From: an uncultured Anaeroplasmataceae bacterium
Lineage (GTDB): Bacteria > Bacillota_I > Bacilli_A > Acholeplasmatales > Anaeroplasmataceae
Length of the DNA: 64,000 nt
Reading direction: 5' to 3'
Assembly (NCBI GenBank): GCA_944325035.1
Contig: CALUYM010000001.1
Location: 186,001 to 250,000, forward strand
Part shown: positions 2,909-21,566 of the stretch, piece after piece
Layout of the letters: every line of letters begins with the position of its first letter
Position numbering within the stretch: the first letter of the stretch is position 1
Translations under genes and position numbers: made by a program
The notes under the pieces: model-generated
Seen by the model: only the letters and a program-made list of their open reading frames with translations
The model's database searches: none
What the model was told of the DNA's origin: nothing

Positions 2909-2977
2909 TTGTATTTGATGTTTAAAATTAAATATAATTATATAAGTAATTTATGGAACGTTTGGATAAGATATTAG
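2909..2977 (+). other. Possible short upstream reading frame overlapping rluB start
   Basis: The best ribosome-binding site in this leader (AGAGGAGA, 2893-2900) is too far from the rluB ATG at 2953. It is correctly spaced for a TTG at 2909, which opens a 22-codon frame in a different phase (in-frame ATG at 2918) that ends at 2977, inside rluB. Translation of this frame could deliver ribosomes to the rluB start. This is inference; the frame codes for no recognisable peptide. Confidence 0.35.
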
Positions 2978-3651
2978 CTCATTTAAATTATGGTTCGCGA
3001 AAAGAAGTAAAAGAATATATTAGAAAAGGATATTTTATGGTAAATGGGGAAACTATCTATGACGATGACCATAAAATTAATCCTTTAGAAGATGAAATAA
3101 CTTTTGATGGTGAAAAAGTTGAATACACTGAGAAAGTATATTTTATGTTAAATAAACCAGAAGATGTCGTCAGTGCTACTTGGGATCCAAGATATAAAAC
3201 GGTTGTTGATATTTTAAGCGACTATGCAAAACAAAAGATTTTTCCAGTCGGTCGATTAGATATTGATACAACTGGTCTTTTAATTATGACTAATGATGGT
3301 AAATTAGCACATAAATTGCTATCACCTAAGTATCACGTTTGGAAAACTTATGAAGCTAGATTTACAGGAGACTTTAAAAGCGAATATGTAAAAAAATTTG
3401 AAGAGGGAATTACAATTGATGATGGTTATACTTGTTTACCTGCTAAAGTTGAATTGATTCAAAAAGATTTAGCTTTAGTATCAATTCATGAGGGTAAATA
3501 CCATCAGGTTAAAAGAATGTTTGAAGCACTTGATATGAAAGTTGTCCAATTAAAACGAGTTTCTTTTGGACCATTAACTTTAGATTCTAATTTAAGTTTA
3601 GGTGAATATAGAGCGTTAACGGAAGAAGAAATTAAACTTTTAAAAGAATAG
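2953..3651 (+). CDS. rluB: 16S/23S rRNA pseudouridine synthase, RsuA/RluB family
   Basis: A 232-residue enzyme that converts a specific rRNA uridine to pseudouridine. It begins with an S4 RNA-binding domain (MERLDKILAHL, residues 1-60). The catalytic motif GRLDIDTTGLL carries the nucleophilic aspartate at residue 103. A C-terminal HQVKRM motif is also typical of the RsuA/RluB/RluE group. The start is fixed by the conserved S4 N-terminus even though there is no good ribosome-binding site directly before it. Whether the target is 23S (RluB) or 16S (RsuA) cannot be decided from sequence alone; the symbol is the more common call in Firmicutes. Confidence 0.85.
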   Translation: MERLDKILAHLNYGSRKEVKEYIRKGYFMVNGETIYDDDHKINPLEDEITFDGEKVEYTEKVYFMLNKPEDVVSATWDPRYKTVVDILSDYAKQKIFPVGRLDIDTTGLLIMTNDGKLAHKLLSPKYHVWKTYEARFTGDFKSEYVKKFEEGITIDDGYTCLPAKVELIQKDLALVSIHEGKYHQVKRMFEALDMKVVQLKRVSFGPLTLDSNLSLGEYRALTEEEIKLLKE

Positions 3652-3652
3652 G

Positions 3653-6600
3653 GTGGTGTATGTGGATAAAAAATTGTATGGTATTGAACAAAGACTTTTA
3701 GATACAGGGAAACGAAATCGATTAATTAATTTTAAAAAAAGTAATATTTCAACTATTGAAATTGTATTTGATATTTATAAGCTTTTTGATGAATTAGAAG
3801 AAGGAAAAATTTATAATTTTGCCAAATTATTTACAGAATTGGATGAGGATTTGTCACTTAATGATGAAGAAAAAGCTAGGATTACTAATAGTTTAAGTGG
3901 CATAATGCCTTATAAAATTAGATATTCTAAAGAAGAAATTAATCAATTAGCTTCACATATCAAGGATAAGAAAGTTAATTATCTATTTTCGACAAGTCAT
4001 GAAAATAATTTAATGCGTACACTTAATCTACTTCGTAATAAAAGCCACTTATTTTTTGTTGAAAATGGAATTAATCCATTATTTTTAGCATTTGGATTTT
4101 TAAACTACATCGAAAATAATGAAAAATTTAGTGCACCCTTAATCTTAATCCCTGTTTCAATAAAGAAAAATAAGCTTACTGACAGGCCAACTTTGATTAT
4201 TGAAGATGATGAACCAGTTTATAATATTAATTTAATTGAAAAATTACTTCGCGACTATAGAGTTAATATTAACGTTGAATTTACTGATTTGAAAGAATAT
4301 TTTACTGAAATAAACGAAATTGTTAAAAAATTAAATTTTAGTGTAGATGAAAGTATTTATTTAGGATTATTTTCATTTTCTAAAATTATGATGTATCAAG
4401 ATATTGCATCTAATGAAGAATTAGTTAAGCAAAATCAAATTGTCAAAGCTTTTTTTAATCAACCATCAACTTTGAATGATGGTTTAAAATTAGAAGAAGT
4501 CGATTTAGATAAGGTAGAATCTATTTCACAACAAAATCAAGTATTATACGCTGATTCAAGTCAATACAAAGCTATTTATCATGCAAAAAAAGGGTTATCA
4601 TTTGTTTTACAAGGTCCACCAGGTACAGGTAAAAGTCAGACAATTACCAATATGCTTGCAGAATTAATTGCAAGTAAAAAACGTATCTTATTCGTTTGCG
4701 AAAAAAGACAGGCGCTTGAAGTGGTTTATCGTAATTTAAAAAAAAGAGATTTATCGCAATATGCATTATGCTTATTTGATACTAATGTAAATAAAAAGGA
4801 AGTAGTAGAAGATATTTATCAAAATCTTTTAAGTGTTCAAGATAATCGAGTTGAAATATCTGATTATGCTAAACAAGTTTTAACTGATGTTGAAGATGCT
4901 CATTATGAGTTAAATGATTATTTTAGAATACTGACTAATAAGATAATGCCGTTAAATAAGTCTTTATATGAATTGATTGCTTGGCATAATGATTCAATGG
5001 AACGTTTAAATACTCCGTTTAATAATATTTTAGAAATAAAAGAAGATGAATTAAGCGAATATTTAGAAGAAATTGAACGTTTTGAGTTTACTTTAAAAAA
5101 ATTAAATTCTAAACCGCAAGAACATCCTTTTTTCTTATTTAATCGAAATTCTTTATCCTTAGATGAATCACAGGAATTTAAGACATTAATTAAGGAATCT
5201 TATACACTCTTAGATGATATAATATATGAAGTAGATGTAATCAGAGAAAAAACCAGTTTAACTTTTAAAAATCTTAATGGAATAGCAAATATTTGTAATT
5301 TTATTCGCTGTTTTAATGTATTAAATGGCATTAATACTAAGTACTTTTCTTATCACAATATTAAATTAGATTATGATACTTTTAAAGTTTTACAACAATT
5401 GATTGAAGAAAATAAAAATATTCGACAAAATATCACTCAAAAATATAAACTGGAATTTTTAGATCTTAATGAAGATTCCTTATTAAATGAACTTAATAAC
5501 AAGTATAATTCGCGTTTAAAGCGTCTATTTGGCTACAAAAAAATAGAGGAGTATATCGAGTCTTTCTTAAATACAAAAGCTAAACTTAATTATGAAACGA
5601 TAATTAATGATTTACACATGCTCCAAAAGTATAAAAATAAATACCGGGAAATTTTAATAGCTGAAGTATCATTTAAAGAAAAATATGATGAATACGTAGG
5701 ATTTAAGACTAACTTTACTCAATTAGGAAATATAATTAAAAGTCTTTTGTTTATTGAAAATACTAGCTCGTTATTAGAAAATTATAATCCTTTATTTTTA
5801 AAAGAAACGATAGGAACAGATACTAATGAAGTGTATTTAAATGCTAAAATTTCACCTCTTGAAAAAATGATAGAGAGGTTAAATATAACTATTGACAAGT
5901 TAAATGCATATTATGATTATGATTTGAAAGAAGAAGAATATCACATATTGCTAACTAAACTTAAGGTTTCATATTTAAATTTTTCGAAAGTATATGATTA
6001 TGTTGATTTTATAAAAGCATTTCAAACAATAAATCCTAAACTTAATGAATTTAAACATGAATTTTTAAATTTATCTTCAACAAATTTAACTTCAATTTTC
6101 AAAAATAAATTTGCTAGTTGTTATTTAGATGAATATTTAAAAGAAAAGTCTAATTTAGAAATTTTTTCAAATGCATATTTAAATCACTTTTTATGGAAAT
6201 ATCAAGAAAATGATGATAAGATATTTGATATAGCAAAAAGTAAAATAAAAGAAATTGTGACTTCTTCTTGGCCACAATTGGATAGTTTAATGGCAAATAA
6301 TTTAGAGGTAAAAACTCTAGTTGAAGAAGCTAATAAAAAAAGAAAATTAAGATCATTACGAACTTTATTTAAAGAAATCCCAAAAATTTTAACAGATTTA
6401 AAACCGATAATAATGGCAACTCCAATGTCAGTGGCTACTTTCTTAGAGCCAGGAACATTTAACTTTGATTGTGTAATTTTTGATGAAGCAAGTCAATTAA
6501 CACTTGCTAATGCTTTAGGTGCGATTTATCGTAGTAAACAGGTTATTATTGTTGGAGATAACGAACAGCTGCCACCAACATCTTTTTTTGATATGATTAG

Positions 6601-8263
6601 TATCGATGATGAAGACGAAGAAGATTATGATGTTTATGAATCACTTTTAGATGAAGCAATTGTAACATTGCCTAAAATAATGCTTAAATGGCATTATCGA
6701 TCAAAAGATGAGAGTTTAATCAACTTTTCTAATCAAAAAATTTATCATGATTTAACTAGTTTTCCAAGTTCAATTATCAGTGATAATTTAGGAATTAAAC
6801 TAGAATACGTAAAAGATGCAACTTATTATCATGGAAAACGAATTAATCCCTGCGAAGCTAAACGTGTCATTGAAGTTTTAGAAGATATAGTTAAAAATAG
6901 ACCCGAAAAAAGTGTTGGTATTGTAACTTTTAACATGGCTATGCAACAATATTTAGAAAATTTAATAACTGTTTTCCGCTTGAAAAATCCTGAATATGAA
7001 GCCTTTTTTGATGAAGAAAAAACAGAAGCTTTTTTTATTAAAAATCTAGAAACAGTTCAAGGAGATGAACGAGATATCATTATTTTGGCCACAACATTTG
7101 GATATGATGAAAAACAAAAATTATCATTCAATTTTGGACCTATTAATAAAGAAGGCGGATATCGTAGATTAAACGTAGCAATTACACGTGCTAAAGAGGA
7201 ATTAATTTTAGTTACTTCATTAAATAATCAAGACTTTAATTCCACTAAATCGACTAATCGTGGTGTTTTAATGTTTAGAGATTATCTTGCGTATGCCCAA
7301 GAAGCTAAAGAATTAGCTCATTCAGGAACACAAAGTTCTGATGAAATGATTACTAGTATTCAAAGTTTTCTTAATAAGAATGGTTTTAAAACTATTACAA
7401 ATTTAGGATTGTCTGAATTTAAAATTGACTTAGCAGTTTATTCATCCAAGGGAGATTCTTATAAACTTGCAATTTTATCTGATGGGCCAAGTTATCAAAA
7501 ACTTAAAACTATTCGTGATAGAAATCATTTAATTGATAAAATCCTAAAAACGCGAGGATGGAATGTTTATCATATTTGGTCATTAGCTTATTTAAAGCAA
7601 AAAGAATTAATTCATCAAGAAATATTAGATCATCTTACTTCGAAAAATCAAAATGATGTAATTAGTAATAATGATGATGCTTTTTATGAGATAAAGGTTC
7701 AATCAAGTGCAACTAAATTAGAAGATTTATTTGAAGTTTATCCAGATATTAATAAAATGATTTTAGAGTGTGACCTAACCAAAAATAAGCATGATAATAT
7801 TAATGAAATTATGAAAAGAATAATTCCCGTTAGTTTTAAAGAATTAAAAAAATTAATCTTACCACTATATGGAAAAACTAGAATGAGTCCATCTTTATCT
7901 AAAGAAATGGATGAAGATATTAAAAATGTAATTGAAAAATGCGGCTATAAAACATCAATAGGTTTTATTTTAGATCCAAATCATTTTTTCAATATTCCAT
8001 TTAGGAAGCATCAAGAAGGTTATTATTATCCACCAATAGATGGGATATATATCGAAGAATTAGAAAATGCTATTTTGACTATTTTAAAAGAGATAAAAAC
8101 AACAAATAGAAAGACTTTATTTCAAACTTTAAATAGTTTAATTGGCTATGCTAAGGGCTCAATTGTAACAATTGAAACTTATGAAAATGTTATAAAGGCC
8201 TTGTCTGAATTAGGTGATATTACTCTTACAGATGATATAATCAGTGTTGAAGATATTTTGTGA
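3653..8263 (+). CDS. Giant SF1 helicase with nuclease-like C-terminal region (DUF4011/MTES_1575 type)
   Basis: A 1536-residue protein. Order of parts: an N-terminal DUF4011-like region (RLLDTGKRNRLINF); helicase Walker A GPPGTGKSQ at about 321-329; a long helical insertion (about 410-860); Walker B VIFDEASQL at about 940; DNEQLPP; the SF1 motif VI RLNVAITRAKEEL at about 1171-1183. After residue 1230 there is a domain resembling the MTES_1575/Vsr-like endonuclease (FKIDLAV, SDGPSYQ, RDRNHLID, GWNVYHIW), then a C-terminal region that may be DUF3320-like. Such DUF4011-helicase-nuclease proteins include the Hhe-type candidate phage-defence genes. The usual IEcDG nuclease motif reads ILSDG here, so the glutamate is not seen. 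A GTG at 3662, better spaced from AGGGTGG, may be the true start. Neighbours are housekeeping genes, so a general DNA-repair role is also possible. Confidence 0.75.
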   Translation: MVYVDKKLYGIEQRLLDTGKRNRLINFKKSNISTIEIVFDIYKLFDELEEGKIYNFAKLFTELDEDLSLNDEEKARITNSLSGIMPYKIRYSKEEINQLASHIKDKKVNYLFSTSHENNLMRTLNLLRNKSHLFFVENGINPLFLAFGFLNYIENNEKFSAPLILIPVSIKKNKLTDRPTLIIEDDEPVYNINLIEKLLRDYRVNINVEFTDLKEYFTEINEIVKKLNFSVDESIYLGLFSFSKIMMYQDIASNEELVKQNQIVKAFFNQPSTLNDGLKLEEVDLDKVESISQQNQVLYADSSQYKAIYHAKKGLSFVLQGPPGTGKSQTITNMLAELIASKKRILFVCEKRQALEVVYRNLKKRDLSQYALCLFDTNVNKKEVVEDIYQNLLSVQDNRVEISDYAKQVLTDVEDAHYELNDYFRILTNKIMPLNKSLYELIAWHNDSMERLNTPFNNILEIKEDELSEYLEEIERFEFTLKKLNSKPQEHPFFLFNRNSLSLDESQEFKTLIKESYTLLDDIIYEVDVIREKTSLTFKNLNGIANICNFIRCFNVLNGINTKYFSYHNIKLDYDTFKVLQQLIEENKNIRQNITQKYKLEFLDLNEDSLLNELNNKYNSRLKRLFGYKKIEEYIESFLNTKAKLNYETIINDLHMLQKYKNKYREILIAEVSFKEKYDEYVGFKTNFTQLGNIIKSLLFIENTSSLLENYNPLFLKETIGTDTNEVYLNAKISPLEKMIERLNITIDKLNAYYDYDLKEEEYHILLTKLKVSYLNFSKVYDYVDFIKAFQTINPKLNEFKHEFLNLSSTNLTSIFKNKFASCYLDEYLKEKSNLEIFSNAYLNHFLWKYQENDDKIFDIAKSKIKEIVTSSWPQLDSLMANNLEVKTLVEEANKKRKLRSLRTLFKEIPKILTDLKPIIMATPMSVATFLEPGTFNFDCVIFDEASQLTLANALGAIYRSKQVIIVGDNEQLPPTSFFDMISIDDEDEEDYDVYESLLDEAIVTLPKIMLKWHYRSKDESLINFSNQKIYHDLTSFPSSIISDNLGIKLEYVKDATYYHGKRINPCEAKRVIEVLEDIVKNRPEKSVGIVTFNMAMQQYLENLITVFRLKNPEYEAFFDEEKTEAFFIKNLETVQGDERDIIILATTFGYDEKQKLSFNFGPINKEGGYRRLNVAITRAKEELILVTSLNNQDFNSTKSTNRGVLMFRDYLAYAQEAKELAHSGTQSSDEMITSIQSFLNKNGFKTITNLGLSEFKIDLAVYSSKGDSYKLAILSDGPSYQKLKTIRDRNHLIDKILKTRGWNVYHIWSLAYLKQKELIHQEILDHLTSKNQNDVISNNDDAFYEIKVQSSATKLEDLFEVYPDINKMILECDLTKNKHDNINEIMKRIIPVSFKELKKLILPLYGKTRMSPSLSKEMDEDIKNVIEKCGYKTSIGFILDPNHFFNIPFRKHQEGYYYPPIDGIYIEELENAILTILKEIKTTNRKTLFQTLNSLIGYAKGSIVTIETYENVIKALSELGDITLTDDIISVEDIL

Positions 8264-8319
8264 GTACTTTAGCTATAAAAATAACAATAATAAAATCATA
8301 TATAATTATTGTTAATAGA

Positions 8320-8350
8320 CACCTCGCTTTTTGCGAAGTGTTTTTATTTT
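8320..8350 (+). terminator. Intrinsic terminator after the helicase gene
   Basis: Stem CACCTCGC / GCGAAGTG (one C:A mismatch) with a TTTTT loop, followed by a T-rich run. The rest of the 8264-8617 gap is AT-rich leader sequence with the pot promoter. Confidence 0.8.
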
Positions 8351-8513
8351 TAATTATAAAATTTGAGAAAATATAGTACAAAAAATCAATGATATTTTAT
8401 AATAATAAAAGAAATTATATATTGTATTATTGCTTAAAAAGATCTGTAAAAAACTTTAAAAACAGATGAAAATATCTAGTTATATCCATTCAAATTTTTT
8501 CCCATTTTTATTG

Positions 8514-8617: not shown

Positions 8618-10396
8618 ATGGCACGTAAATTAGTTGAACTTAAAGGTGTAAGTAAGGTTTATGGTGAAAATGTCATTCTTAAAGATTTAGATATGGCGAT
8701 TAACGAAAATGAGTTTGTTACTTTACTTGGGCCTTCTGGTTGTGGTAAAACCACTACATTAAGAATTATTGGTGGATTTGAAACCATGAATGAGGGGCAG
8801 TTATTACTCGATGGGGAAGAAATACAGATGTTACCATCGCATAAACGCCCAGTAAATACTGTATTTCAAAGATACGCTTTATTTCCTCACCTAAATATTT
8901 ATGATAATGTCGCTTTTGGCTTAAGAAACAATGTTTATTCAAATGTTTATGACATTGGTGTAATGAATATGATGGAAGAGTATGGTTTTGATGAAGAGGA
9001 AATCGACAATGTAATTAAATATCTTGAAAAATTTAATCGACCTTCAGATGTTAAGAAAGCTGCAATTGATTATTTTTCAACACTTTCAGTTTCTTTTAAG
9101 GTTAACGCTGATTTAAAAATAATTACTAAAGAACAAAAGAAAGCATTAAACTATAAAGGTGTTTTAGAAGATATTATAAAACGTTATGATTTGAATATTA
9201 ATCTAACAGGAAACAAATATAAAGAAACTGTCACAATTCTTTTATCAGAAATTCAATCAAACGATGTTTATTTTAAAATGATTACAAGATTAAATGATCG
9301 TAAGTTCAAAGAAGATGTTATTCGTCATGAAGTAACTAAAGCTCTTAAATTGGTAAATTTAAATGGATATGAAAAAAGACAAATTAATTCATTATCAGGT
9401 GGCCAAATGCAACGAATTGCTATTGCTAGAGCAATTGTAAATAAACCACGTATTCTTTTATTAGATGAACCATTGTCAGCTTTAGATTTAAAACTTCGTA
9501 AATCAATGAGAATTGAGTTAAAGGAAATTCAACAAAAACTAGGTATAACATTTATTTTTGTTACACATGATCAAGAAGAAGCAATGGTTATGTCAGATAC
9601 TGTAATTGTTATGAATGGCGGAAAAATTCAACAAATTGGACGACCAGAAGATATTTATAATATGCCTACTAATCGTTTTGTGGCAACATTCATTGGAGAG
9701 GCGAATATAATTCGTGGTGTTTATAAGACAAAACAACGTCTTGAAATGTTAAATAAAACATTTAAGGTATCTGCACATGACTTTGAAATAGATGATAAAA
9801 TTTATGTCATTGTTGAAAAAGAAGATTTTGACATTGTCCCACTTGAAAGTGCTAAATTAATTGGTAAAGTAGAAAGCGTTAAATTTAATAAAAATGCTTA
9901 TGATTTAACAGTTTTAATTAAAGATACAAAGGTTAAAGTATTATCGGATAATAAATTTAATGTTGGTGATGAAATCGGATTTACAATTGATCCAAATAAC
10001 ATTTATTGTGAAGCTTTAACAGAATCAAAAGAAAGAATTCTAGCAAACTATGATGGTGGAAATATTTTAGAAGGTACATATAAAGGGAATAAAATAGTTG
10101 AATTTCTTGATCAAGAGTTTGATACATATGTTACAACATTTGAACCAGGCGAAGTTGTGGATGCTGTGATTAGACCCGAAGACTTCGATTTAGTTTTAGA
10201 TAATCCTGATTCTGCTATTTTACAAGGTGTAGTTACTAAATCAATTTTTACAGGAATTCACTTTGAAATCCATGTAAACTGTGAAGGTGTAGATTTATTA
10301 GTTGAAGATTATCAGAATGTTGAAGTTGGACAACGAATTGGTCTAAAAGTTGATTCGTATGAAATTCATATGATGAAAGTAAACGAGGAGGAATAG
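8618..10396 (+). CDS. potA: Spermidine/putrescine ABC transporter, ATP-binding protein with long insertion
   Basis: ATPase subunit that powers polyamine import. Walker A GPSGCGKTT (residues 38-46), Q-loop VFQRYALFPH (Q84), signature LSGGQ (259-263), Walker B LLLDEP (D283, E284) and H-loop histidine (317) are all present. At 592 residues it is far longer than the usual 350-380. About 130 extra residues (104-238) lie between the Q-loop and the signature, in the helical domain that contacts the permease, and the C-terminus seems to hold two TOBE-like regulatory units (from about 360). Long PotA proteins of this kind are known in mycoplasmas. First gene of potABCD; potB starts on its stop codon. 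Confidence 0.9.
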   Translation: MARKLVELKGVSKVYGENVILKDLDMAINENEFVTLLGPSGCGKTTTLRIIGGFETMNEGQLLLDGEEIQMLPSHKRPVNTVFQRYALFPHLNIYDNVAFGLRNNVYSNVYDIGVMNMMEEYGFDEEEIDNVIKYLEKFNRPSDVKKAAIDYFSTLSVSFKVNADLKIITKEQKKALNYKGVLEDIIKRYDLNINLTGNKYKETVTILLSEIQSNDVYFKMITRLNDRKFKEDVIRHEVTKALKLVNLNGYEKRQINSLSGGQMQRIAIARAIVNKPRILLLDEPLSALDLKLRKSMRIELKEIQQKLGITFIFVTHDQEEAMVMSDTVIVMNGGKIQQIGRPEDIYNMPTNRFVATFIGEANIIRGVYKTKQRLEMLNKTFKVSAHDFEIDDKIYVIVEKEDFDIVPLESAKLIGKVESVKFNKNAYDLTVLIKDTKVKVLSDNKFNVGDEIGFTIDPNNIYCEALTESKERILANYDGGNILEGTYKGNKIVEFLDQEFDTYVTTFEPGEVVDAVIRPEDFDLVLDNPDSAILQGVVTKSIFTGIHFEIHVNCEGVDLLVEDYQNVEVGQRIGLKVDSYEIHMMKVNEEE

Positions 10397-11193: not shown

Positions 11194-12032
11194 TGATAGA
11201 AAGTAAAGGCTTAAGAAAATACTTACCAATTATTTTTAAAGTTTTTTTTGTAACTTTATCAATGCTTATCATGTATATACCGGTACTTATTATCATCTAT
11301 CAATCATTTAATTCCGATGCAAATGCCATGCAGGCATTACATTTTGGACATTTTACATTTTCAAATTATGCGGAAATTTTTACAAATCGCCGTTTATATC
11401 AAAATATTATTGATTCGCTATTGGTTTCATTTTGGGCAACAGCTATTTCAACTATATTTGGACTTTTTGCCTCAATTGGTATAAATTCATTAACAGGAAA
11501 AGCTAAAAAAACTTTAAAATTCTTAAATGAGGTGCCAATGTTACAATCTGAAATTGTAACTGGTATTTCAATCATGTTAATTTTTAGTCTATTAATACCA
11601 ATAATTCCTCAAATTTTTGGTTTTCCAACAATGTTAATAGCACATGTTTTCTTTACTATTCCTTATGTAATTATGATGATTTTACCTAAATTAGAACAAA
11701 CTGATGAGTCATTGTTTGAAGCTGCGCAAGATTTGGGTTGTTCTAAAACAAAGGCCTTATTCAAGGTGATTATTCCTTCTTTACAAACCGCAATTATGAC
11801 AGGTGCATTACTAGCATTTACATTATCGATCGATGATTTTGTAATTTCATATTTTACTCAGGGTAATGGTTTTTATAATTTTTCAAATTATGTTTATAAT
11901 TCATATACAAAACGTAATTTTTCAGCGGGCGCTTATGCTTATAATTCATTATTAACCTTGGTTACTTTAGCAATTGTGCTATTTGTATCAATCAAAACAG
12001 GTACAAAGAAAAAGAAGGGGGTAAGTAAATGA
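11193..12032 (+). CDS. potC: Spermidine/putrescine ABC transporter permease
   Basis: A 279-residue membrane permease, the second pore subunit. It has about six hydrophobic segments and an EAA loop, EAAQDLGCSKTKALFKVIIP, followed by FTLSIDDFVISYFTQG, a stretch typical of PotC. The last bases overlap the potD start by 4 bases. The ribosome-binding site AAGGAGG is inside the end of potB. Confidence 0.9.
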   Translation: MIESKGLRKYLPIIFKVFFVTLSMLIMYIPVLIIIYQSFNSDANAMQALHFGHFTFSNYAEIFTNRRLYQNIIDSLLVSFWATAISTIFGLFASIGINSLTGKAKKTLKFLNEVPMLQSEIVTGISIMLIFSLLIPIIPQIFGFPTMLIAHVFFTIPYVIMMILPKLEQTDESLFEAAQDLGCSKTKALFKVIIPSLQTAIMTGALLAFTLSIDDFVISYFTQGNGFYNFSNYVYNSYTKRNFSAGAYAYNSLLTLVTLAIVLFVSIKTGTKKKKGVSK

Positions 12033-13357
12033 AAAAAATTATTTCAATTTTTTTATTCCTAATTGTATTTACAATTGTTTCTGTAATGATTTTGAACTCT
12101 GGTAGTGGTAATAATACTTTGTATTTACTTAACTGGGGAGAGTATATAAATCAAGATTTGATTTCTCGTTTTGAAAAGGAATATAACTGTGTGGTTGTAG
12201 AAGAGACTGTTACTTCAAGTGAAACAATGTATCAAAAAATTGTTTCTAATACAACAAGTTATGATGTGGCGATCCCTGGTGATTATATGGTAACAAAATT
12301 GACTAATGAGGGCTTATTAAAGCCAATTGATATCAATAATCCAGAACTTCCAAATCTACATCAAAATGATATGTTTGTAGATGAATTAGTTAAAATTCGT
12401 GATAAGTATAATTTTTCAGATGAATACTCACTTCCATATTTTTGGGGAGCGTATTCGATTTTATATAATACTCGCTATGAAGAAACTGAAAAAGTAATAC
12501 AGGAAAATGGATTTAATGCTTTATTTAATCGTGATTTATTTAAGGAAGATGTTAAAATTGGCATGTATTCGACAGCTCGTTGGACATTATCAGCTTACTT
12601 AATGTCTCAAAATTTAGATCCAAATACCGAAGATTTTGATACACAAAAAATAGTATCAGCTATTAAAAGTGCTAATATTGATGTTTGGGGAGATGATCAA
12701 TTAAAACGCCAAACAGCCACTGGGAAATTAGATTTAGCATTTACACAATTAGGTGATTTTTTTGATGGCTTATGGTTAAGTTTAGAAGAAGGTCTAGATG
12801 TGAATGAAAATGGAGAAACTGGACTTGATGCTTTAAGTTTTAATGTAAATGTTCCTAAAAATACATCAGCTTTTTTTGATGCGATGGTTATACCTAGAAC
12901 ATCAAAAAATTATACTTTAGCTAATCAATTTATTAATTTTATGCTAGAACCTCAAAATGCGTATGAGAATGCGTTAGCCATTGGTTACTGTCCAACATTA
13001 AATAGCGTTGTAAACTTATATCAAGAAGCTGCTAAAAATGGGAAATACTATTACGAAAATAAGGAAAACCCAAGTCGAAGTGTTTCTATGCAAGAATTCA
13101 TAGATAAATATCCTGTTTATTTAAATCCATTAGTCAATTCGGATATAGAACAAGTTACTCTATTTGAACCAAAAACTGCAGATTATATGACACTATGTGA
13201 AACAATAATTAATCAAGCTAAGTCTAATGTCGCAACTGGCTCTAATACTGGCGCTATTATTTGTTATACATTTACCGGGGTAGTTAGTCTAAGTATCGTA
13301 TCTTATGTATCCTATTCAATTTATAGAAAACATCGGAAAAAGAAAAATGCTAGATAA
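12029..13357 (+). CDS. potD: Polyamine-binding protein with both N- and C-terminal membrane helices
   Basis: Extracytoplasmic binding protein that captures spermidine or putrescine for PotABC. LYLLNWGEYI (from residue 31) is the PotD/PotF opening strand, and YFWGAYSILYNT and AMVIPRTSKN also fit the family. The N-terminus is one hydrophobic helix (residues 4-23) with no lipobox cysteine, so it looks like an uncleaved anchor and not a lipoprotein signal. Unusually, residues about 408-430 form a second hydrophobic helix followed by a basic tail (YRKHRKKK), so the protein may be held in the membrane at both ends. The final bases overlap the next gene. Confidence 0.88.
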   Translation: MKKIISIFLFLIVFTIVSVMILNSGSGNNTLYLLNWGEYINQDLISRFEKEYNCVVVEETVTSSETMYQKIVSNTTSYDVAIPGDYMVTKLTNEGLLKPIDINNPELPNLHQNDMFVDELVKIRDKYNFSDEYSLPYFWGAYSILYNTRYEETEKVIQENGFNALFNRDLFKEDVKIGMYSTARWTLSAYLMSQNLDPNTEDFDTQKIVSAIKSANIDVWGDDQLKRQTATGKLDLAFTQLGDFFDGLWLSLEEGLDVNENGETGLDALSFNVNVPKNTSAFFDAMVIPRTSKNYTLANQFINFMLEPQNAYENALAIGYCPTLNSVVNLYQEAAKNGKYYYENKENPSRSVSMQEFIDKYPVYLNPLVNSDIEQVTLFEPKTADYMTLCETIINQAKSNVATGSNTGAIICYTFTGVVSLSIVSYVSYSIYRKHRKKKNAR

Positions 13358-18408: not shown

Positions 18409-18483
18409 GCAGTAGTAGTACAACGGTTAGTACTCCACATTGCCAATGTGGAGATACGGGTTCGATTCCCGTCTATTGCTCCA
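18409..18483 (+). tRNA. tRNA-Gly (GCC), copy 1
   Basis: A 75-base cloverleaf with encoded CCA. The acceptor stem GCAGTAG pairs with CTATTGC (one G:T). The anticodon loop TTGCCAA on a CCACA/TGTGG stem gives anticodon GCC, which reads glycine codons GGC and GGU. The T-arm is CGGGTTCGATTCCCG. Identical to the copy at 21492-21566. Terminator at 18497-18530. Confidence 0.97.
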
Positions 18484-21491: not shown

Positions 21492-21566
21492 GCAGTAGTA
21501 GTACAACGGTTAGTACTCCACATTGCCAATGTGGAGATACGGGTTCGATTCCCGTCTATTGCTCCA
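21492..21566 (+). tRNA. tRNA-Gly (GCC), copy 2
   Basis: All 75 bases are identical to the copy at 18409-18483, anticodon GCC, CCA encoded. Similarity ends immediately after CCA. Confidence 0.97.

Follow-up and report, generated by a model that had tools for sequence, protein, structure and literature searches.

The protein MTES_1575 of Microbacterium testaceum combines HEPN, transglutaminase, superfamily 1 (SF1) helicase and Vsr-type restriction endonuclease (REase) domains with two winged helix-turn-helix (wHTH) domains (PMC3710099). Related domain orders are found in Hhe (DUF4011-helicase-Vsr), in ProA (DUF4011 - SF1 helicase - MTES_1575 - tail), which NCBIfam annotates as anti-phage, and in PDC-S37, a single-gene family of PADLOC that is a candidate phage-defence family only. 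With a nuclease domain recognized by profile match, such DUF4011 helicases are naturally assumed to defend by cleaving DNA; a search of a collection of papers returned none on PDC-S37, on ProA as an anti-phage protein or on the loss of the catalytic glutamate (Glu), and DUF4011 was mentioned in three of them only. Here we describe a protein of this group encoded in a 64,000-nucleotide stretch of the genome of an uncultured Anaeroplasmataceae bacterium (contig CALUYM010000001.1, positions 186,001 to 250,000; hereafter the window). Judged from its sequence, the helicase motor is intact and the catalytic set of the Vsr-like domain, i.e. a helix Glu, the Glu of the IEcDG motif and a histidine, is gone. 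The gene and the relevant parts of the nuclease-fold domain are listed here, with residues counted from the codon at 3653:

3653 to 8263, plus strand: gene for a DUF4011 - SF1B helicase - putative Vsr-like pseudonuclease - winged-helix protein (open reading frame (ORF) list, Pfam, PADLOC, NCBIfam)
7340 to 7648, plus strand: Vsr/MTES_1575 restriction-endonuclease-fold domain, residues ~1230-1332, predicted to be non-catalytic (Pfam PF18741, Foldseek, model with predicted local distance difference test (pLDDT) 77-95)
7349 to 7351, plus strand: Ile1233, at the site where intact homologues have the helix-1 glutamate (alignment column)
7427 to 7429, plus strand: Asp1259 of FKIDLAV, kept
7475 to 7477, plus strand: Leu1275, at the site of the catalytic glutamate, ILSDG for IEcDG (homologue alignment)
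7496 to 7498, plus strand: Gln1282, at the site of the Vsr-like histidine (homologue alignment)

The MTES_1575 profile (PF18741) matches residues 1235-1328 with an E-value of 1.6e-17 and 63.8 bits, above its gathering cutoff of 38.2. An AlphaFold2 model of residues 1190-1536 (md09cba0ac864; 56 sequences, mean pLDDT 86) predicts that the REase fold has been retained, with a helix-strand-strand-strand-helix-strand-helix core that is followed by two winged-helix-like units. Foldseek matched this model to 3HRL, an endonuclease-like protein (prob 1.00, TMt 0.75), and further to RAP-domain mitoribosome proteins and cullin winged helices, with no match to the model as a whole reaching E 0.001. A profile search of PDB sequences also returned 3HRL and RAP proteins, at E 0.28-0.38 only; these proteins, the matched RAP domains being mitoribosomal, are matches in fold to our region, whereas the similarity in sequence is marginal. 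The nuclease region reads FKIDLAV (D1259), LAILSDGPSYQ (L1275, D1277), IRDRN (D1289) and RGWNVYHIWS, and so combines the profile score and fold of PF18741 with the absence of its catalytic Glu/His set. An earlier note, made from the letters of this DNA, had described the ORF of 1536 residues, the order of DUF4011, SF1 helicase with a long insertion and MTES_1575/Vsr-like region, and the motifs FKIDLAV, RDRN, GW-IW (here GWNVYHIW) and ILSDG. All of these were recovered, the domain order by Pfam and the models, and the predicted structure agrees with the Vsr-like fold it had supposed. A search of the genome for a second MTES_1575 nuclease found none.

The significance of the missing residues was assessed by aligning 134 nuclease domains, of which 108 homologues were left after removal of near-copies; because these were picked by similarity to our protein, the fractions are not population frequencies. 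At the IEcDG position 44 homologues carry Glu and 64 do not (Met in 27, Leu in 25, Ile in 7 and other residues in the rest). The Vsr-type His at position 1282 occurs in 31 of the 44 domains with Glu1275 and in one of the 64 without it (Fisher p 1.3e-15, uncorrected for phylogeny), and the helix-1 Glu at position 1233 in 34/44 and 4/64, respectively. Asp1259 is present in 43/44 of the Glu-bearing and 58/64 of the Glu-less homologues, and the latter likewise retain Asp1277 (63/64), Asp1289 (61/64) and Trp1303 (63/64). A compensating acidic residue was rejected, as no alignment column gains acidic residues comparably in the Glu-less set. Of the two possibilities raised in the earlier note, that the enzyme may have become helicase-only is supported by the joint absence of helix Glu, IEcDG Glu and His, while the use of another residue found no replacement column. 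The comparison at ILSDG that it had proposed showed, in addition, that the Glu loss is no peculiarity of this gene, since two genera share it and it turned up again in several further clades. Leu occupies the site in all three genomes of the genus of our protein, g1 (GILTDQENYQ in G001, GILTDQDNYQ in G002), as it does in G005 of genus g4; a sequencing error or a single-gene oddity was rejected on this basis.

A 113-row tree, built from the helicase columns only, implies 9 changes of the Glu state (37 in shuffles), 6 of which are forced by well-supported branches, and a more careful 44-row tree forces 4 changes and shows a single change in 0/200 bootstrap trees. A single loss, with all Glu-less rows in one clade, was rejected, as it costs 290 log-likelihood units (approximately unbiased test, p 2e-120). 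Although a tree counts state changes and by itself cannot separate loss from gain, the changes were read as losses, given that Hhe and most of the other clades possess the same Glu/His set. On these helicase-only trees the Glu has been lost independently at least four to six times. More specifically, our protein groups with those of G002 and G005 in a Glu-less clade nested in a clade of their order and Mycoplasma that includes intact relatives (G049, G159 and Mycoplasma zalophi), and a separate 22-row clade of the family to which our genome belongs and a 32-row ProA-type clade are Glu-less independently. At 60-65% motor identity the nuclease domains of Glu-bearing pairs have an average identity of 0.61 and those of Glu-less pairs of 0.41, where the pairs are not independent; our protein and that of G002 are 0.66 identical in the motor and 0.45 in the nuclease domain. 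This faster divergence fits a domain that has lost its catalytic constraint and kept its fold.

Genes for large serine recombinases (~580 aa) were seen near five Glu-bearing loci (L078, L082, L086, L091 and L096) and near no Glu-less one. Intact versions might be mobile, and pseudonuclease versions resident, but five loci give no more than a hint of this and are too few for a claim.

Among the families compared, PDC-S37 resembles our protein in domain order and length. Its profile was matched over positions 6-1544 of 1550 by residues 4-1530 with 993 bits (judged by length and bits), whereas the Glu-bearing homologue L032 reaches 1484 bits. The ProA model (NF058533) gave 961.7 bits, below its cutoff of 1500, over profile positions 358-1902; the N-terminal extension of ~350 residues that characterizes ProA is lacking. 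As the protein begins at DUF4011, it has no room for the HEPN and transglutaminase domains of MTES_1575 either, with which it shares the helicase, the Vsr-like REase and the tandem wHTH tail, and whose nuclease residues it has lost. For Hhe the scores were 412 bits (PADLOC) and 615.4 bits (NF042953, cutoff 2000). The core domain order is that of Hhe, but one Hhe representative, located on a Klebsiella plasmid between insertion sequence elements, keeps IECDGATYH where our protein has ILSDGPSYQ. With both scores under the curated cutoffs ProA and Hhe were rejected, and on account of the full-length match the protein is considered to be of the PDC-S37 type. The likeness to Hhe suggested earlier stands as a kinship with single-gene defence helicases, and the proposed PADLOC run did yield a full-length candidate-defence match, but the nearest models are PDC-S37 (993 bits) and ProA (962 bits). 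Two other homologues, L038 (2156 bits) and L044 (1974 bits), exceed the ProA cutoff, yet they read GIICDG and GILCDG; members of the NCBIfam family annotated as anti-phage ProA are, by their motifs, likewise Glu-less. L038 also has a weak transglutaminase match in its N-terminal extension.

The remainder of the protein consists of the following parts:

3692 to 4246, plus strand: DUF4011 domain, residues 14-198 (Pfam PF13195, 8.2e-29)
4613 to 4651, plus strand: Walker A / motif I GPPGTGKSQTITN, residues 321-333, (nearly) invariant among homologues
4970 to 6232, plus strand: insertion of ~420 residues within the first RecA-like domain, residues ~440-860, almost all alpha-helical in the AlphaFold2 model
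6482 to 6496, plus strand: motif II DEASQ, residues 944-948, invariant among homologues
6671 to 7219, plus strand: second RecA-like domain (AAA_12), residues 1007-1189 (Pfam PF13087, 1e-15)
7748 to 8245, plus strand: C-terminal tail with two predicted winged-helix units, residues ~1366-1440 and ~1467-1531 (AlphaFold2 model, Foldseek winged-helix matches)

Pfam recognizes DUF4011, AAA_11, AAA_12 and MTES_1575, and the helicase motifs GPPGTGKSQTITN, DEASQ, GDNEQLPP, QGDERD and RRLNVAITRAK are unbroken. The protein has all the marks of the SF1B (Upf1-like) helicases (Walker A, DEAxQ, QGDERD, RRLNVAxTRAK), and in the AlphaFold2 model of residues 1-1198 (md49ae727d263, mean pLDDT 78.7) Foldseek found the motor to be Upf1/Sen1/Senataxin/Aquarius-like and the insertion is all-helical. 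Motor fold and motifs are thus those of Upf1, Sen1, Senataxin, Aquarius and Ighmbp2, whereas the fusions to DUF4011, the pseudonuclease and the wHTH units are additional and the insertion differs. The tail had been called DUF3320-like; a Pfam search of this region gave no match in our protein, even at E 10, but the same region of homologues does match PF11784 (L038, 4e-13). The ORF is open over 1536 codons from a first GTG codon. Its likelier start is probably the GTG at 3662, giving 1533 aa, because the homologues of the same genus in G001 and G002 begin with M-D-K at the place of the fourth codon of our ORF, behind a purine-rich stretch.

Two features adjoin the gene:

2953 to 3651, plus strand: rluB-type 23S rRNA pseudouridine synthase gene, ending one base 5' of the helicase ORF, conserved neighbour
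8316 to 8352, plus strand: intrinsic-terminator-like hairpin and U tract directly after the helicase gene (-11.8 kcal/mol, z -5.5, 0/200 shuffles)

The hairpin was not among the predictions of a consensus terminator scan, probably because of a stem mismatch. Upstream lie an ACT-domain gene, a DUF711 gene and rluB, and downstream a potABCD-like operon. The gene rluB is found directly 5' of the helicase gene in 3/3 g1 genomes, with varying downstream neighbours, and the g4 genomes G005 and G015 have the order rluB-ybaK-helicase; in other genera the helicase gene occupies different, internally recurring loci. Because these linkages recur, the gene is regarded as resident and apparently vertical within genera rather than on a mobile island. 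A copy is present in most genomes of most genera of the family, where genomes of genus g5 have several paralogues and those of g3 show, among the matches listed, shorter and partial ones only. Within the genus, orthologues are 48-50% identical for the helicase versus 70-71% for RluB. A defence island was rejected, as PADLOC gave no matches for the window neighbours beyond the ABC-ATPase ones of a PotA-like protein, judged generic, and no conserved partner gene was seen next to the Glu-less long homologues. The earlier picture of a lone defence gene among core genes is accordingly half right: the gene stands alone, but it is resident and coupled to rluB in its genus, and shared neighbours in related genomes, which the note had named as a sign of housekeeping, were found to that extent.

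At seven loci from two genera (L147, L150, L151, L158, L162, L170 and L171) the gene for a Glu-less helicase comes directly after one for a cardiolipin-synthase-like protein (~520 aa), and at L158 (G028:C10) the latter is followed by two DUF4011 helicases in direct tandem. In the window, the PotA-like ABC ATPase (8618-10396, 592 aa) has a long insertion after the initial portion of its ABC domain and ahead of the LSGGQ signature, with ABC_tran matches in two stretches, and the PotD-like binding protein (12029-13357) has what seems to be a transmembrane tail at its C terminus, basic at the end. Two tRNA-Gly(gcc) genes (18409-18483 and 21492-21566), separated by 3 kb and in the same orientation, mark a possible duplication or insertion site.

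With moderate confidence we regard the protein as a resident DUF4011 SF1 helicase of the PDC-S37/ProA/Hhe group that engages nucleic acid in an ATP-driven way and whose fused Vsr-like endonuclease is now a pseudonuclease. It would load on foreign or aberrant nucleic acid via DUF4011, the winged helices and the pseudonuclease, the latter as a binding or regulatory module, and the SF1B motor would use ATP-driven translocation to block or remodel the nucleic acid, with no cutting by itself. Since the catalytic loss arose repeatedly and independently across the family, the Glu-less domain probably serves in nucleic-acid binding or as a structural support and no longer in cutting. An anti-phage role is the likeliest biology, with chances that are even or marginally better, because the loss is also seen in proteins that carry the anti-phage ProA annotation. 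Several points weigh against these views. The coupling of Glu and His, when corrected by phylogenetic pairing, is consistent (6 independent pairs, ~4.5 agreeing, 0 disagreeing) and short of formal significance (median p 0.06); no defence genes adjoin the helicase gene, and its linkage to rluB suits housekeeping equally. We are aware of no experimental work on the protein or on the clade to which it belongs. Moreover, the Glu-less domains might still bind metal weakly or catalyse in an unusual way, since Asp1259, Asp1277 and Asp1289 are more than 90% conserved in them.

That conservation is also what speaks for a nuclease still active through Asp1259 and Asp1277, by Vsr-like metal coordination, or through some other residue; Vsr itself carries Phe where the Glu-bearing homologues have Glu, yet keeps its His. 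In the Glu-less set, however, the Vsr-type His and the helix Glu vanish together with the Glu and no acidic column replaces them, the domain evolves faster, and six homologues have lost D1259 as well, which makes an active nuclease improbable. A decaying former defence gene, drifting to loss, would explain a missing active site in one gene at one locus, but this has been largely refuted and is most improbable: the 1536-codon frame is open, the helicase motifs are all invariant, the motor is far better conserved than the nuclease domain, and the Glu-less state is old, being shared with g4 at ~40% identity. More serious, though still unlikely, is a housekeeping helicase, i.e. a domesticated, vertically inherited Upf1/Senataxin-like remodeller of RNA or DNA (structured RNA, R-loops, ribosome biogenesis) that is co-transcribed with rRNA/tRNA-quality genes. 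The rluB and rluB-ybaK linkages of g1 and g4, the genus-specific loci of g5 and g6 with their cardiolipin-synthase neighbour, the copy in most genomes of most genera, and best Foldseek matches to RNA helicases and, for the nuclease fold, to mitoribosomal RAP domains are all in line with it. Nevertheless, orthologues within the genus are far less alike than those of RluB, the matches listed for g3 are shorter and partial, the several paralogues of g5 are more immune-like than ribosomal, and every close whole-length model is anti-phage or candidate anti-phage. The family models, a patchy distribution, the expansion of paralogues and rapid divergence favour defence over housekeeping, while the rluB linkage points to the latter. 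Taken as a whole, the observation of the earlier note was confirmed and its interpretation supported only in part.

The recurrent, parallel loss of catalytic residues with retention of fold and motor leads to the prediction that much of the family can do without cleavage, and it cautions that annotation by profile match alone labels many probably inactive domains as nucleases. Somewhat short of an even chance, in our estimate, is the wider proposition that the Vsr-like nuclease has become a pseudonuclease on at least four to six independent occasions across the DUF4011 helicases, ProA included, in the service of immunity. If true, immunity would widely rely on a nuclease fold kept as a nucleic-acid sensor or clamp, with the defending done by the motor alone or by a partner.

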